This document shows, one piece after another, positions 45,153 through 56,754 of a DNA stretch of 64,000 nt (position 1 is the first letter of the stretch; every line of letters begins with the position of its first letter). This DNA is from Oceanospirillaceae bacterium (GTDB taxonomy: Bacteria; Pseudomonadota; Gammaproteobacteria; Pseudomonadales; Balneatricaceae). The DNA lies in the NCBI GenBank assembly GCA_013215505.1, contig JABSQZ010000008.1, positions 203,038-267,037 of the forward strand, given 5' to 3'. Both the position numbers and the translations under genes were made by a program. The notes beneath the pieces are model-generated. The model had not been told where the DNA came from, did no database searches, and was given only the letters and a program-made list of their open reading frames with translations.

Positions 45153-45502
45153 AGGTGCATTCCTTTTATTGTGGGAAACTGATTTGCTCAGAGAGTTTTC
45201 TGCTCCAATCGGTGAGCATGGGTAAATAGTCTGAAATTTTCAGATGTCAGCATAGAACAACAATATGACGGAGCAATGACAGATATAAGAGGGTACTGCC
45301 AAGACAGTATTTTTTAATTTTTTGCGGATTTAACAATGCAGGGGAAGTGGGTCGCGCCTTGGCCGATAAGGATTAGTTGAGGAAGTAGCGATCAATAGAG
45401 CAGCGCTTTCAGCGAACAGCCATAAGATCTTATGGCTGTTGGTGATTGCCTGGAAATCTTAGCAGTCAGAGAAACTGCGGCTGAATCCCAGCACAACAAA
45501 TG
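45153..45502. other. Intergenic region with perfect 26-bp palindrome
   Basis: At 45415-45440 the arm AACAGCCATAAGA is followed directly by its complement TCTTATGGCTGTT, without spacer. It follows the paralogue at 45503-45709 and could be its terminator or an operator. The rest of the region has no supported feature. Confidence 0.6.
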
Positions 45503-53240: not shown

Positions 53241-53436
53241 GTTTTACAGAACATGCGAAATAAGTTCGATAGCTACCCTGAACATAATATAGCTCAAGCA
53301 GAGGGGTTTACAGAGGCGTATCTAACTTGTTCGCAAGTTCCCTAGATCTAGATGAACATGCTAAAATTATTGCGGGTATAGTAGCGACTTCTGTCGCGGT
53401 AATACAGTAGTTGATAGTAAATATGAGTATATTTTG

Positions 53437-54000
53437 ATGGTTAAAAACACAGCGCAACAACAGCTTACACTGACCCAGCAATGGCTGGAAACGATAGTCG
53501 TAGGTATGAATCTCTGCCCTTTTGCAAAGCCGGTGATTAAAGCGCAGAGTCTGCGCTACGCCCTGACTGCAGAGTCTGATAACGAGCAATTACTGCAGTT
53601 TTTCCTGGCTGAATTAGAGAAAATTCAGCAGGCCAGTGAACAGCAGATCGCCACAACTTTAGTGATTATGCCCAACGCGGTAGCAGATTTTTATGATTAT
53701 TTAGACCTGCTGGCGCAGTGCGAAGCGTTGCTGGAAAGCGCCCATTTGGCTGATGAGTTCCAGCTGGCGAGTTTCCATCCCGGATATTTATTTGCCGGGG
53801 TAGACGCCGATGATATGAGTCACTGGACCAATAGGTCACCCTACCCTATGTTACATATTATTCGCCAGGGGCAAATGAGCCGGTTACTGGCAAACTACCC
53901 CAATCCGGAGAGTATCCCCAAGCGCAATATTGCGTTGCTGAGAGAGATGGGGAAGAGCGAGCTGATTCAGCGCTTCCCACCTTTTGCCGACTATGCATAA
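53437..54000 (+). CDS. DUF1415 family protein
   Basis: A 187-residue cytoplasmic protein of the DUF1415 family, function unknown. The marks are WLETIVVGMNLCPFAKPV near the start (a conserved Cys-Pro-Phe-Ala), LASFHPGYLFAGVDADD and NRSPYPMLHIIRQ in the middle, and PKRNIALLREMG near the end. The conserved His-Pro and Cys suggest an enzyme. The ATG at 53437 was chosen over a TTG one codon before. It is divergent from ubiC and convergent with the diguanylate cyclase, only 34 bp from its stop. Confidence 0.9.
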   Translation: MVKNTAQQQLTLTQQWLETIVVGMNLCPFAKPVIKAQSLRYALTAESDNEQLLQFFLAELEKIQQASEQQIATTLVIMPNAVADFYDYLDLLAQCEALLESAHLADEFQLASFHPGYLFAGVDADDMSHWTNRSPYPMLHIIRQGQMSRLLANYPNPESIPKRNIALLREMGKSELIQRFPPFADYA

Positions 54001-54034: not shown

Positions 54035-55579
54035 TTACTGTAAATTGTCTTTGTTTTCCCGGTATTGACCGTCGACGGTGACCGCATTTCTGCAGGTCTC
54101 TTTGCTGTGGTACAGCGCTTTGTCCGCCGCTTGTATAAGCTGCATAGGAGAGTTGAAATCACTGGGAACAAAGCTGGCGACGCCCTGGCTGACAGTGACT
54201 ACATCACAAACACTGGAGCGATCGTGGGGAATCGCTCTTTTCATCACTGCCTCGCGCACTAGCTCTGCTACTTTATGGGCCCCACTGATGTTGGTTTCCG
54301 GCATCAGAATCGCGAACTCTTCTCCCCCGTATCGACAGACGGCATCATAGGGGCGACTCAGAGCATTTTGCAGTACTTCTGAAATTTGTCGCAGCGCGGA
54401 GTCTCCGGCCAAGTGCCCATAACTGTCGTTGTAGGGCTTGAAAAAATCCACGTCCAACATAATCAGTGCCAAACTCTGGTTGGTACGGGAGCTGCGGCGC
54501 CACTCCTGCTCTAAAAGCTTCTCGAACTCACGGCGATTATTGATTCCGGTCAGGCCATCGATACGCGCGGAACGCTCCAGGAAGTCGCGAGACTTTTTCA
54601 GGTCTAGCATCATGCTGATACGCGCTTTTAAAATTCCCGCAGAGCGGCCGGCGGGAATGTAGTCGGCGGCACCGGCTGCATAGGCCGATAGCTCCAAGCT
54701 GTCGTCATTTTCGGCACCGACAATGGCGATCGGTGTGTAGCTGATTTTCATCCGTTCGATAAAGCTCTGGTAACCGCGAAGCAAGTCGTGCCAATTTTCA
54801 TCGGCGTGTAACAGCACCAGATCGGGGGCATAATTATCTGAGTTGAACAGCTGTTTTAGCTCTTCCATGGAGGCCGGCAGCAGTAAGTTATATTCGCCGC
54901 GGATCGCTTCTAGGGGAGCCCATATTGAAGTGACATCTCCGGTGCTCAATATAGCGATAGAGTGCAAGCTGGAAGAGCGCTGTAATTTAGTTGAGTCGTT
55001 CTGTAAGTTTGACTCTTCTCCGGCAAAGAAGGCCCCTAAATCTTCGATACTGGGCAGGCCTAACAATTTGCGATTATCCGGGGCCACTATTGCCGGTATT
55101 CTCGATCCGACTTTGCTTTTGTCCCACTGCGAGTGCCATCGATCTAACTGATCTTCGCACTGCTCATCGACTTCTAACTCCACCGGTAAACCAGCCTTTT
55201 CGATACAGTTAAAAATGACACTGGGGCAGGCGATGTCTTTGCCATCGACCCATAGTGCCGTATAAAAAAGATCGCGTAGTGTTTCAGCTTGTTGCCGGTC
55301 AACGCTTTGCGCGGCAATGATACAGAGAATCGCAAAGCGGCTGTCGGGGCGTTCCGGAGGCAGTGCCAGAGGTACTTCCCCGGCCAGAGAGCGCACCGCA
55401 AAGACATCGCTGGCCAGCTCGGTTAAAATTTCTGGACGGTTGCCATACAGGCCTAAATCGGGAGCGTGCTCAACTAACCTGAACTCAACTTGATCCAGCA
55501 GTGTCAGCTGTTTTAATTTCTGGTGTACAGCATAGCTATAAGGGCAGTTAAGATCGCCATAGACGATGTATTTATCCAT
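54035..55579 (-). CDS. DsbA-like/degenerate receiver/GGDEF diguanylate cyclase
   Basis: A 514-residue cytoplasmic fusion. Residues 1-188 are a DsbA/FrnE-type thioredoxin fold: strand YIVYGDLNCPYSYA with Cys12-Pro-Tyr-Ser15, a helical insert, and the cis-Pro loop SRIPAIVAPDNRKLLGLP. Residues about 205-330 look like a receiver whose phospho-Asp is His (PDLVLLHADEN) and whose Lys is lost (DYIPAG). Residues 340-500 are a GGDEF domain with an intact GGEEF (418-422) and an RxxD inhibitory site, RPYD, five residues before it. It should make c-di-GMP; the N-terminal domain may sense redox, thiol or a small ligand. Only one active-site Cys is present, so a monothiol function is more likely than a disulfide oxidase. 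Confidence 0.9.
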   Translation of the reverse strand: MDKYIVYGDLNCPYSYAVHQKLKQLTLLDQVEFRLVEHAPDLGLYGNRPEILTELASDVFAVRSLAGEVPLALPPERPDSRFAILCIIAAQSVDRQQAETLRDLFYTALWVDGKDIACPSVIFNCIEKAGLPVELEVDEQCEDQLDRWHSQWDKSKVGSRIPAIVAPDNRKLLGLPSIEDLGAFFAGEESNLQNDSTKLQRSSSLHSIAILSTGDVTSIWAPLEAIRGEYNLLLPASMEELKQLFNSDNYAPDLVLLHADENWHDLLRGYQSFIERMKISYTPIAIVGAENDDSLELSAYAAGAADYIPAGRSAGILKARISMMLDLKKSRDFLERSARIDGLTGINNRREFEKLLEQEWRRSSRTNQSLALIMLDVDFFKPYNDSYGHLAGDSALRQISEVLQNALSRPYDAVCRYGGEEFAILMPETNISGAHKVAELVREAVMKRAIPHDRSSVCDVVTVSQGVASFVPSDFNSPMQLIQAADKALYHSKETCRNAVTVDGQYRENKDNLQ

Positions 55580-55914: not shown

Positions 55915-55919
55915 TGTAG

Positions 55920-55987
55920 TTATCCGGCTTTATCCATCGCCGATTTCATGTCGTTGAGGCTTAAGTGTCGAATATTTTGACCGCTGA
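55920..55987 (-). pseudogene. Diverged duplicate of the phoU 3' end
   Basis: About 66 bases match 56031-56096 with five or so differences, 109 bp apart. In the leftward direction it reads SGQNIRHLSLNDMKSAMDKA, then Gly and a TAA stop; intact PhoU ends SGQNVRHLSLNDMKSAMEKA, Arg and TGA. The changes are conservative (Val/Ile, Glu/Asp), as between orthologues and not as in random decay. Only the tail exists. Confidence 0.85.
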
Positions 55988-56021: not shown

Positions 56022-56028
56022 GCAGAGG

Positions 56029-56754
56029 TCATCGGGCTTTTTCCATCGCCGATTTCATGTCGTTGAGGCTTAAGTGTCGAACATTCTGACCGCTGACTAA
56101 GTAGATGATATGCTCTGCCATATTGCGCGAGTGATCACCGATGCGCTCCAGTGAGCGCAGTACCCAAATCACATTCAGGCAGCTGGAGATTGAGCGCGGG
56201 TCTTCCATCATCAAGCTGACCAGTGTGCGCATCGCCGAGCGGTACTCCTGATCGACAGCGCCATCGTTTTTGGCCACTCTATAGGCCTGTTCTACATCGC
56301 CACGGGCAAAAGCGGTCAATACATCTTTAACCATAGAGCGCACTAAATTACCAATGTGTCGTACTTCCTGAAAGCCGTGTTGGCTGCTACCTCTGGTCTG
56401 CATCTCCAGCGTTTGCCGGCAGATACGCACTGCTTCATCTCCCATTCGCTCCAAGTCAACTACCGCTTTGGATATAGCCACAATTAAGCGCAAATCACCC
56501 GCTGCAGGCTGGCGCCTGGCGATGATGCTAGTGCAGTGCTCATCGATATTCAGCTCCATCTGATTGGTTTGTAAATCAATCGCCAGTGCCTCTTCAGCAA
56601 GTTGCATATCGCCGGTTAGCAGCGCTTCAATCGACTGGTGTACCTGACGTTCAACAATGCCGCCCATCGCCAGCAGTTCAGTGCGTATTTGCTCCAATTC
56701 CTCGTTGAATTTTTTCGAGATATGGCTAGAGTAACCTTCGGTGTTTGCTTCCAT
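56029..56754 (-). CDS. phoU: Phosphate signalling protein PhoU
   Basis: A 241-residue PhoU, two similar three-helix bundles. Metal-site motifs EALAIDLQTNQMELNIDEHC and, in the second half, EQAYRVAKNDGAVDQEYRS are visible. The helix motifs MGDEAVRI and RIGDHSRNMAEHIIYLVSG are diagnostic. PhoU links the Pst transporter to PhoR so that the kinase is off in phosphate excess. AGGAG lies nine bases before the ATG. It is the last gene of the pstCAB-phoU run, 15 bp after pstB; its last codons are copied at 55920. Confidence 0.96.
   Translation of the reverse strand: MEANTEGYSSHISKKFNEELEQIRTELLAMGGIVERQVHQSIEALLTGDMQLAEEALAIDLQTNQMELNIDEHCTSIIARRQPAAGDLRLIVAISKAVVDLERMGDEAVRICRQTLEMQTRGSSQHGFQEVRHIGNLVRSMVKDVLTAFARGDVEQAYRVAKNDGAVDQEYRSAMRTLVSLMMEDPRSISSCLNVIWVLRSLERIGDHSRNMAEHIIYLVSGQNVRHLSLNDMKSAMEKAR

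Follow-up and report, generated by a model that had tools for sequence, protein, structure and literature searches.

Many c-di-GMP enzymes have inputs that have not been identified. Catalysis by diguanylate cyclases needs two GGDEF domains to meet, and receivers can hold such a dimer. The second receiver of PleD is not phosphorylated and acts as an adaptor; DgcR has a phosphorylatable receiver and no N-terminal domain in front of it. Proteins with a DsbA fold can act by protein binding, as in YjbH, which binds Spx.

In the available passages of published work, YjbH is described as delivering Spx for proteolysis and as having a CXXC motif (PMC7889195). Redox control has been described for the c-di-GMP proteins HmsC/HmsD, PdeC with its CSS domain, AxDGC2, RmcA and CdgF, with periplasmic disulfides, a flavin PAS, heme or hemerythrin as inputs, according to the available parts of a review in the text of which the word thioredoxin is absent and DsbA occurs once (PMC8846402). 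Two further papers, as far as their accessible passages go, describe neighbouring genes for a cytoplasmic thiol oxidoreductase and a diguanylate cyclase in Leptospirillum TFP8 (PMC7084401), and two different Ser/Thr kinases of which one carries a DSBA domain and the other GGDEF, never both (PMC1262709). A fusion of a DsbA fold to GGDEF was not found described in the abstracts and passages of the open-licence PMC literature, in agreement with an earlier reading of the letters of this DNA by a model (the sequence-only reading), which knew of no described c-di-GMP system with such an input; subscription papers or domain databases such as InterPro may list the layout without having studied it.

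Here we analyze such a fusion, encoded in a 64,000 nucleotide stretch of DNA from an Oceanospirillaceae bacterium (the window). A sensor domain followed by GGDEF is a known kind of protein; the DsbA-fold input is unusual, real and conserved.

Results

A single frame encodes a DsbA-like domain, a degenerate receiver and a GGDEF domain

The gene starts with an ATG at position 55579 of the minus strand and ends at 54035, and its product contains, from N to C terminus, a DsbA-like domain, a degenerate receiver-like domain and a GGDEF domain (Table 1). Two Pfam families scored above their cut-offs: DSBA (PF01323) over residues 6-133, with 32.9 bits against 25.6, and GGDEF (PF00990) over residues 339-498, with 157.9 bits against 23.8. 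DSBA was also found at an E-value of 0.01 or better in all 17 scanned members of alignment A2. An AlphaFold2 model of the full-length protein, based on the window protein and nine full-length relatives, had a mean pLDDT of 79 and a pTM of 0.56, so that the domains are modelled and their mutual arrangement is not. Foldseek matched this model to WspR, DgcR and PleD, with WspR first by E-value.

Table 1. Positions in the window of the fusion gene, its domains and key residues, and its two neighbours
Feature	Position	Strand	Remarks
Whole gene, DsbA-fold / pseudo-receiver / GGDEF	54035..55579	-	514 aa; full-length homologues found
DsbA-like thioredoxin-fold input domain, residues 1-190	55010..55579	-	Pfam DSBA, AlphaFold2 pLDDT 88.4, Foldseek
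C12-P-Y-S15 motif	55535..55546	-	CPFC or CPYC in 34/60 homologues
Cys86	55322..55324	-	41/41 pho-locus homologues, 0/19 others
Cys141	55157..55159	-	17/26 CXXS homologues, 0/34 CXXC homologues
Pro162, cis-Pro place	55094..55096	-	60/60 homologues
Gln200, hinge position	54980..54982	-	Cys in 18/19 outside pho locus, 16/41 inside
Degenerate receiver (pseudo-REC), residues 205-335	54575..54967	-	Phospho-Asp replaced by His, Lys by Ala
GGDEF diguanylate cyclase domain, residues 339-498	54086..54565	-	RxxD 409-412, GGEEF 418-422
phoU (named by reading), upstream neighbour, same orientation	56029..56754	-	Conserved synteny
DUF1415 gene, convergent downstream neighbour	53434..54000	+	Conserved synteny

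We collected 60 fused homologues, which include near-copies, so that the motif counts given below are not counts of independent events. The collection sought the motif and GGDEF; all 60 listed rows passed and none was removed thereby. It excludes the two pieces of a broken copy in genome G017 (L199) and the broken copy in genome G750 (L208, L135, L153). Open frames of 501-585 aa were found in 59 of the 60 and one of 443 aa in the remaining one, in many assemblies, nine of which are titled records. These intact long frames refute an origin of the fusion in misassembly, a frameshift or chance, the probability of which we put at practically nil. Broken copies do exist in the two other genomes; nothing in the window points that way. 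Moreover, the same architecture in dozens of other species is more than chance would give. The sequence-only reading had seen one frame with these three parts, and Pfam, AlphaFold2, Foldseek and the homologues confirm that it is a real one.

In both L199 and L208 the fusion frame is broken in its N-terminal part, by assembly error or by decay.

The N-terminal domain has a predicted DsbA fold of the FrnE, DsbM, kappa-GST and YjbH kind

When residues 1-193 were modelled alone, the best of five AlphaFold2 models had a pLDDT of 88.4 and a pTM of 0.87 (the two worst reached 73 and 60). The order of elements in this model is strand, helix, strand, helical insertion, two strands and helix, and both the model and its Foldseek matches correspond to a thioredoxin fold with a helical insertion. 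Against the PDB, Foldseek returned kappa GST, YjbH, FrnE, DsbM and HCCA isomerase, all with a probability of 1.00 and query TM-scores of 0.55-0.73. The five best matches are kappa GST (best E-value 7e-9), two YjbH chains from complexes with Spx (6gho and 6ghb) are within the ten best, the entry titles of the matches FrnE 5xwh and DsbM 5hfi mention GSH, and ScsC and classical DsbA rank lower. A DsbA fold had been expected from the sequence-only reading and was found; by the predicted model, the domain is nearest to the FrnE, DsbM, kappa-GST and YjbH kind, above classical DsbA.

In sequence comparisons, the top profile match of the domain is a YjbH chain (E-value 0.017), and hhalign aligned it over 177 columns to six free-standing CPFC proteins of gammaproteobacteria, which we call FrnE-like, with a probability of 98.9 and an E-value of 1.1e-17. 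The two motifs picked out by the sequence-only reading were found at their places, C12-P13-Y14-S15 and S159-R-I-P162-A-I-V, and P162, judged by its position, would be the cis proline. FrnE/DsbM-type thiol oxidoreductases have a CXXC dithiol, and the window protein has CPYS instead. The first strand consists of residues 4-8, which leaves no space for a leader, and a hydrophobic leader was found neither by reading nor in the AlphaFold2 model. As read from its N-terminus, the protein is cytosolic and not an exported periplasmic DsbA.

Kappa GST and HCCA isomerase have a catalytic serine at the first position of their motif S-P-Y/F-S. The resemblance of CPYS to this motif, together with the rank of kappa GST in the fold search and the HCCA isomerase matches, would fit a domain with a small-molecule ligand (glutathione or an aromatic compound), as in those two enzymes, so that the cyclase reports this ligand and not a redox potential. 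In addition, a GST-like gene (by reading) is next downstream in two loci of genus g11 that were read (L167 and L173). This explanation is unlikely in our judgement: the residue at the place of the catalytic serine is Cys in 60/60 homologues, identity to the kappa GST and HCCA isomerase matches is only 13-19%, and the GST-like gene has the opposite orientation and no counterpart at the locus in the window.

The receiver is degenerate and the cyclase is apparently competent

Aligned with the PhoB encoded in the same window, the receiver has Ser-Thr for the acidic pair, His for the phospho-Asp, Gly for the Thr and Ala for the Lys, which bears out the loss of Asp and Lys noticed before and leaves a receiver that lacks the usual means of being phosphorylated. 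In the same comparison for the 60 homologues, nine have the phospho-Asp, nine the Lys and none has the two together; the first acidic residue is kept in two. The domain is too degenerate for Pfam Response_reg (PF00072) to match at its cut-off (12.4 bits, cut-off 30.2). DgcR entry 6zxb (REC-GGDEF) nevertheless matched the full-length model with a target TM-score of 0.86 (second DgcR entry 0.52). A receiver-like fold in front of GGDEF, and the Asp or the Lys kept in some homologues, could be taken to indicate an ordinary response regulator driven by phosphorylation. With His and Ala at the two positions in the window protein, no homologue that keeps both residues and a Response_reg score this far under the cut-off, we consider this highly improbable; the sequence-only reading had called phosphorylation an unlikely input. 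Two distant fused members (L206 and L153) keep the Lys-Pro of a receiver (AKPFHP), and the receiver may have been functional in some ancestor.

The window protein has an intact GGEEF motif and an intact RxxD inhibitory site (R409, D412), as had been noted from the letters. Among the 60 homologues, GG[ED]EF is present in all and RxxD in 57, those without it being L006-L008. Judged by these motifs, the cyclase is apparently competent. The genome of the window contains 69 matches to the protein; one is full-length and the others fall within residues 185-510. The retention in the N-terminal domain of C12 and P162, key residues of an enzyme of this fold, might also indicate the reversed direction, in which the N-terminal domain has a thiol-disulfide activity that is under the control of c-di-GMP or of the GGDEF domain. 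This is very unlikely, since GG[ED]EF in every homologue suggests that the GGDEF domain is probably not a mere receptor of c-di-GMP.

One fusion event suffices on a tree of the cyclase halves

A scan of titled genomes kept 80 loci, nine of which (L001-L009) aligned over nearly the whole length. Their hosts are the Osedax symbionts Rs1 and Rs2 (L001, L002 and L005), two Oceanospirillaceae MAGs, Marinobacterium jannaschii, an Acidiferrobacteraceae MAG and two gammaproteobacterial MAGs; L003-L005 and L009 are from genomes already counted and are among the rows dropped. We also searched samples of the family, order, class and phylum of the window for the N-terminal domain. These samples overlap, and in the order, class and phylum searches the first 8 or 9 candidates per genome were scored, so that matches may have been missed. 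Within the family, matches were obtained in 45 of 116 genomes and 6 of 16 genera, and of the 53 matches, 50 have an open frame of 501-565 aa; the three shorter frames (443, 186 and 91 aa) all belong to G017. Thus, the domain is nearly always fused within this family. At least 13 of 390 genomes of the order sample match, of which 10 are fused (6 of the same family and 4 others) and 3 unfused. For the class sample the number is at least 22 of 369: three intact fusions including that of the window, one fusion whose frame is broken and 18 more matches, nine of which were read and have no GGDEF, the remainder being in frames of 200-242 aa. The phylum sample of 398 genomes gave at least three matches, G000 and two short frames (242 and 258 aa), and no fusion beyond that of the window. 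As to how widespread the fusion is, a question raised by the sequence-only reading, it accounts for nearly all matches of the family, the domain also being present in scattered other gammaproteobacteria; the fusion is kept in a number of marine bacteria.

A tree of the cyclase half was made with 27 fused rows out of the 60 and with 33 loci out of L010-L080 (71 loci). None of the 33 has a C-P-[FYWH]-[CS] motif upstream in frame; the other 38 loci were left out. Fused and unfused sequences are separated by one branch with a support of 100/100 in this tree, which has long branches. One fusion event would suffice on the tree, which does not by itself prove a single origin. The closest free-standing relatives found for the N-terminal domain carry CPFC.

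Seven fusion copies with CPFC lie outside the pho locus described below, in genera g2 and g1 (L190-L193, L197, L198 and L200). Their genomes also carry a copy at the pho locus, which is broken in G017.

A clade of 41 homologues lies at a locus with phoU and a DUF1415 gene

In a tree of the N-terminal domain, 41 rows form a clade (support 100/99) that corresponds to the locus of the window, here called the pho locus; apart from DUF1415, its genes were named by reading. In these rows phoU lies just upstream in 37 and DUF1415 downstream in 38, with at least one of the two in each. Neither was seen near the other 19 rows, within about 2-10 kb on each side (less than 1 kb upstream for L196). In 19 genomes of the family that lack the fusion, the match to phoU is next to that to DUF1415, with 72-688 bases between them, which indicates that the slot is simply empty there.

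Between phoU and the fusion gene of the window, the best candidate for a PhoB site has 9 of the 14 core positions of a Pho-box consensus; by the same consensus, the best in the same gap of other loci have 8-10, and 7 in one. Three Pho-box-like sites with 11/14 on the minus strand (62923, 61728 and 51702) precede the ORFs of pstS (site beginning 88 bases from the ORF start), pstC (67 bases) and phoB (114 bases), and a stronger match (13/14) is present at 45282. We do not claim phosphate control of the fusion gene. Read-through from pst-phoU is possible in relatives with gaps of 112-187 bases. A scan for promoters and terminators gave no excess over shuffled sequences.

The gap between phoU and the cyclase gene contains a partial second copy of the phoU 3' end, seen as a direct repeat of 69 bases that are 93% identical (55919-55987 and 56028-56096). 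A second piece of phoU is also present at the same locus in L005/L210. In L167 and L173, pyridoxamine-oxidase-like and LysR-type genes (by reading) lie together with the GST-like gene between the fusion and DUF1415.

The cysteines of the family differ between branches

The motif is CPFC in 33 of the 60 homologues, CPYC in one, CPYS in 15 and CPFS in 11, residue 15 being Cys in 34 and Ser in 26. Among the columns counted, N11, C12, P13, P74, Y106, W110, W152 and P162 are invariant. CXXC is present in 19/19 homologues outside the pho locus and in 15/41 inside (genera g11 and g16), for which reason CPYS looks derived. Outside the pho locus, a cysteine at the hinge position, some seven residues ahead of where the pseudo-receiver begins its first strand, sits in an otherwise variable linker. 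Inside, it is found in 5/5 members of genus g16, 4/10 of g11, 7/8 of g12, 0/11 of g2 and 0/7 of g1. The second motif Cys and the hinge Cys are both absent from all seven pho-locus members of the genus of the window.

Other cysteines were counted as well. In addition to Cys86 and Cys141 (Table 1), Cys125 is found in 32/41 pho-locus rows, CXXC rows included, and in 0/19 others, and Cys118 in 6/60, all of genus g1. Clean compensation for the lost second cysteine was rejected, as none of the listed columns, Cys86, Cys125, Cys141 and Cys118 included, has Cys throughout the CXXS rows of the 60 while lacking it throughout the CXXC rows.

The CXXS rows form one group (97/91) in the N-terminal tree (61 rows, with a very long outgroup branch); in the cyclase-half tree the CPFS rows are placed beside CPFC rows with weak support (80/86). 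The second cysteine may thus have been lost once by the former tree or twice by the weakly supported latter. The order with the fewest steps would be CXXC and a hinge Cys at the time of the fusion, gain of Cys86 in the pho-locus branch and then loss of the second Cys, with separate losses of the hinge Cys, one of them probably in the genus of the window. A fuller reconstruction, which we consider doubtful as a whole, is a cytosolic cyclase family of single origin that reads cellular thiol state by means of a FrnE-type DsbA fold, with an ancestral three-cysteine switch of CXXC and hinge that would have been rebuilt stepwise in the pho-locus branch: Cys86 would come in, the second motif Cys would go out and the hinge Cys would go out in some genera, Cys141 appearing only where the second motif Cys is gone.

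Two readings of this pattern can be weighed. The DsbA-fold domain may be a docking platform, where a partner at the C12/P162 cleft places or switches the cyclase and, at least in the lineage of the window, thiol chemistry plays a minor part or none. The YjbH matches in the fold and profile searches agree with this, the latter only at an E-value of 0.017, and so does the loss of the second Cys in 26/60 homologues and of the hinge Cys in the genus of the window, as if the domain had been freed from redox chemistry. Cys12 in 60/60 homologues, and CXXC with a hinge Cys in 18/19 of those outside the pho locus, would not be demanded by a purely structural cleft. We regard docking as possible, short of probable. 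The other reading is thiol input. It is favoured by DSBA and GGDEF above their Pfam cut-offs, the fold matches to thiol proteins and the profile match to free-standing CPFC proteins; by the retention of C12 and P162 throughout and of CXXC in 34/60; by the hinge Cys outside the pho locus despite an otherwise variable linker; and by the patterns of Cys86 and Cys141, with GG[ED]EF and RxxD kept, the receiver Asp and Lys lost and no space for a leader at the N-terminus. Against it stands the loss of both the second motif Cys and the hinge Cys in the genus of the window. Judged from the alignment, this loss would fit a redox role that has decayed equally with one that has changed, and Cys12 could have been retained for structure or docking; YjbH is an example of this fold acting through protein binding. 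The cysteines of the family at large look like a thiol device, yet one probably reduced to a single motif Cys in this genus. Because the pattern cuts both ways, we slightly lowered the weight of thiol input for the window protein and slightly raised those of docking and ligand binding.

Discussion

Our favoured reading, held at somewhat less than even confidence, is that of a cytosolic diguanylate cyclase with a FrnE/DsbM-type DsbA-fold input that acts via the pseudo-receiver, with Cys12 as the reporting residue. The pseudo-receiver would serve as a dimerization and coupling adaptor between input and GGDEF. Upon a change in the state of Cys12, the residue that would report, the DsbA-fold domain would move or brace the GGDEF dimer. 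In relatives with CPFC and a hinge Cys, a disulfide among the three cysteines may lock or free the joint of input and pseudo-receiver, and the state of this joint would set how the two GGDEF domains meet. Product feedback via RxxD would be retained. The sequence-only reading had suggested redox state, a thiol or a bound ligand as the input, and any of these may act on the cyclase.

In the window protein the usual C12-C15 disulfide is impossible, as CPYS has no second Cys, and with the hinge Cys also absent from its genus at the pho locus the simplest switch is excluded here and possible in relatives. A redox switch is plausible for the family at large. With the single thiol left to it, the window protein may use another way of sensing or may serve to dock a partner. 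Cys12 could form a mixed disulfide with glutathione, another small thiol or a partner protein or, alternatively, a bond with Cys86 or Cys141.

A c-di-GMP signal may be set by cellular thiol state or by a partner of the DsbA-fold domain. If true, a cytoplasmic DsbA-fold input would tie thiol stress directly to decisions on biofilm or symbiosis. Homologues of the CXXC and the CXXS type, some having a hinge Cys and others lacking it, constitute a natural mutant series that makes the question directly testable.

The protein can be compared with several known systems. In HmsC/HmsD, PdeC, AxDGC2, RmcA and CdgF redox alters c-di-GMP, and in the available passages on them the inputs differ from a DsbA fold. 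The neighbouring genes of Leptospirillum TFP8 are, in the accessible text, two separate genes, in contrast to the fusion in the window. FrnE of Deinococcus and DsbM of Pseudomonas are cytosolic DsbA-fold thiol proteins with the fold of the window domain; they are single-domain proteins, whereas the window domain is fused to a cyclase and has CPYS in its lineage. The Spx adaptor YjbH/SpxH is a DsbA-fold regulator that works by protein binding and has no cyclase. DgcR of Leptospira (REC-GGDEF) corresponds in structure to the C-terminal 300 residues of the window protein and, unlike it, has nothing in front of its receiver. PleD of Caulobacter crescentus (REC-REC-GGDEF) resembles the window protein in that its RxxD-bearing GGDEF domain is immediately preceded by a pseudo-receiver. 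The sequence-only reading had proposed PleD with its first receiver replaced; this holds as a layout and not by score, since the NCBIfam PleD model (PRK09581) aligns to residues 238-502 with 170.4 bits against a cut-off of 474. Where PleD has a phosphorylated first receiver, the window protein has a DsbA-fold domain.
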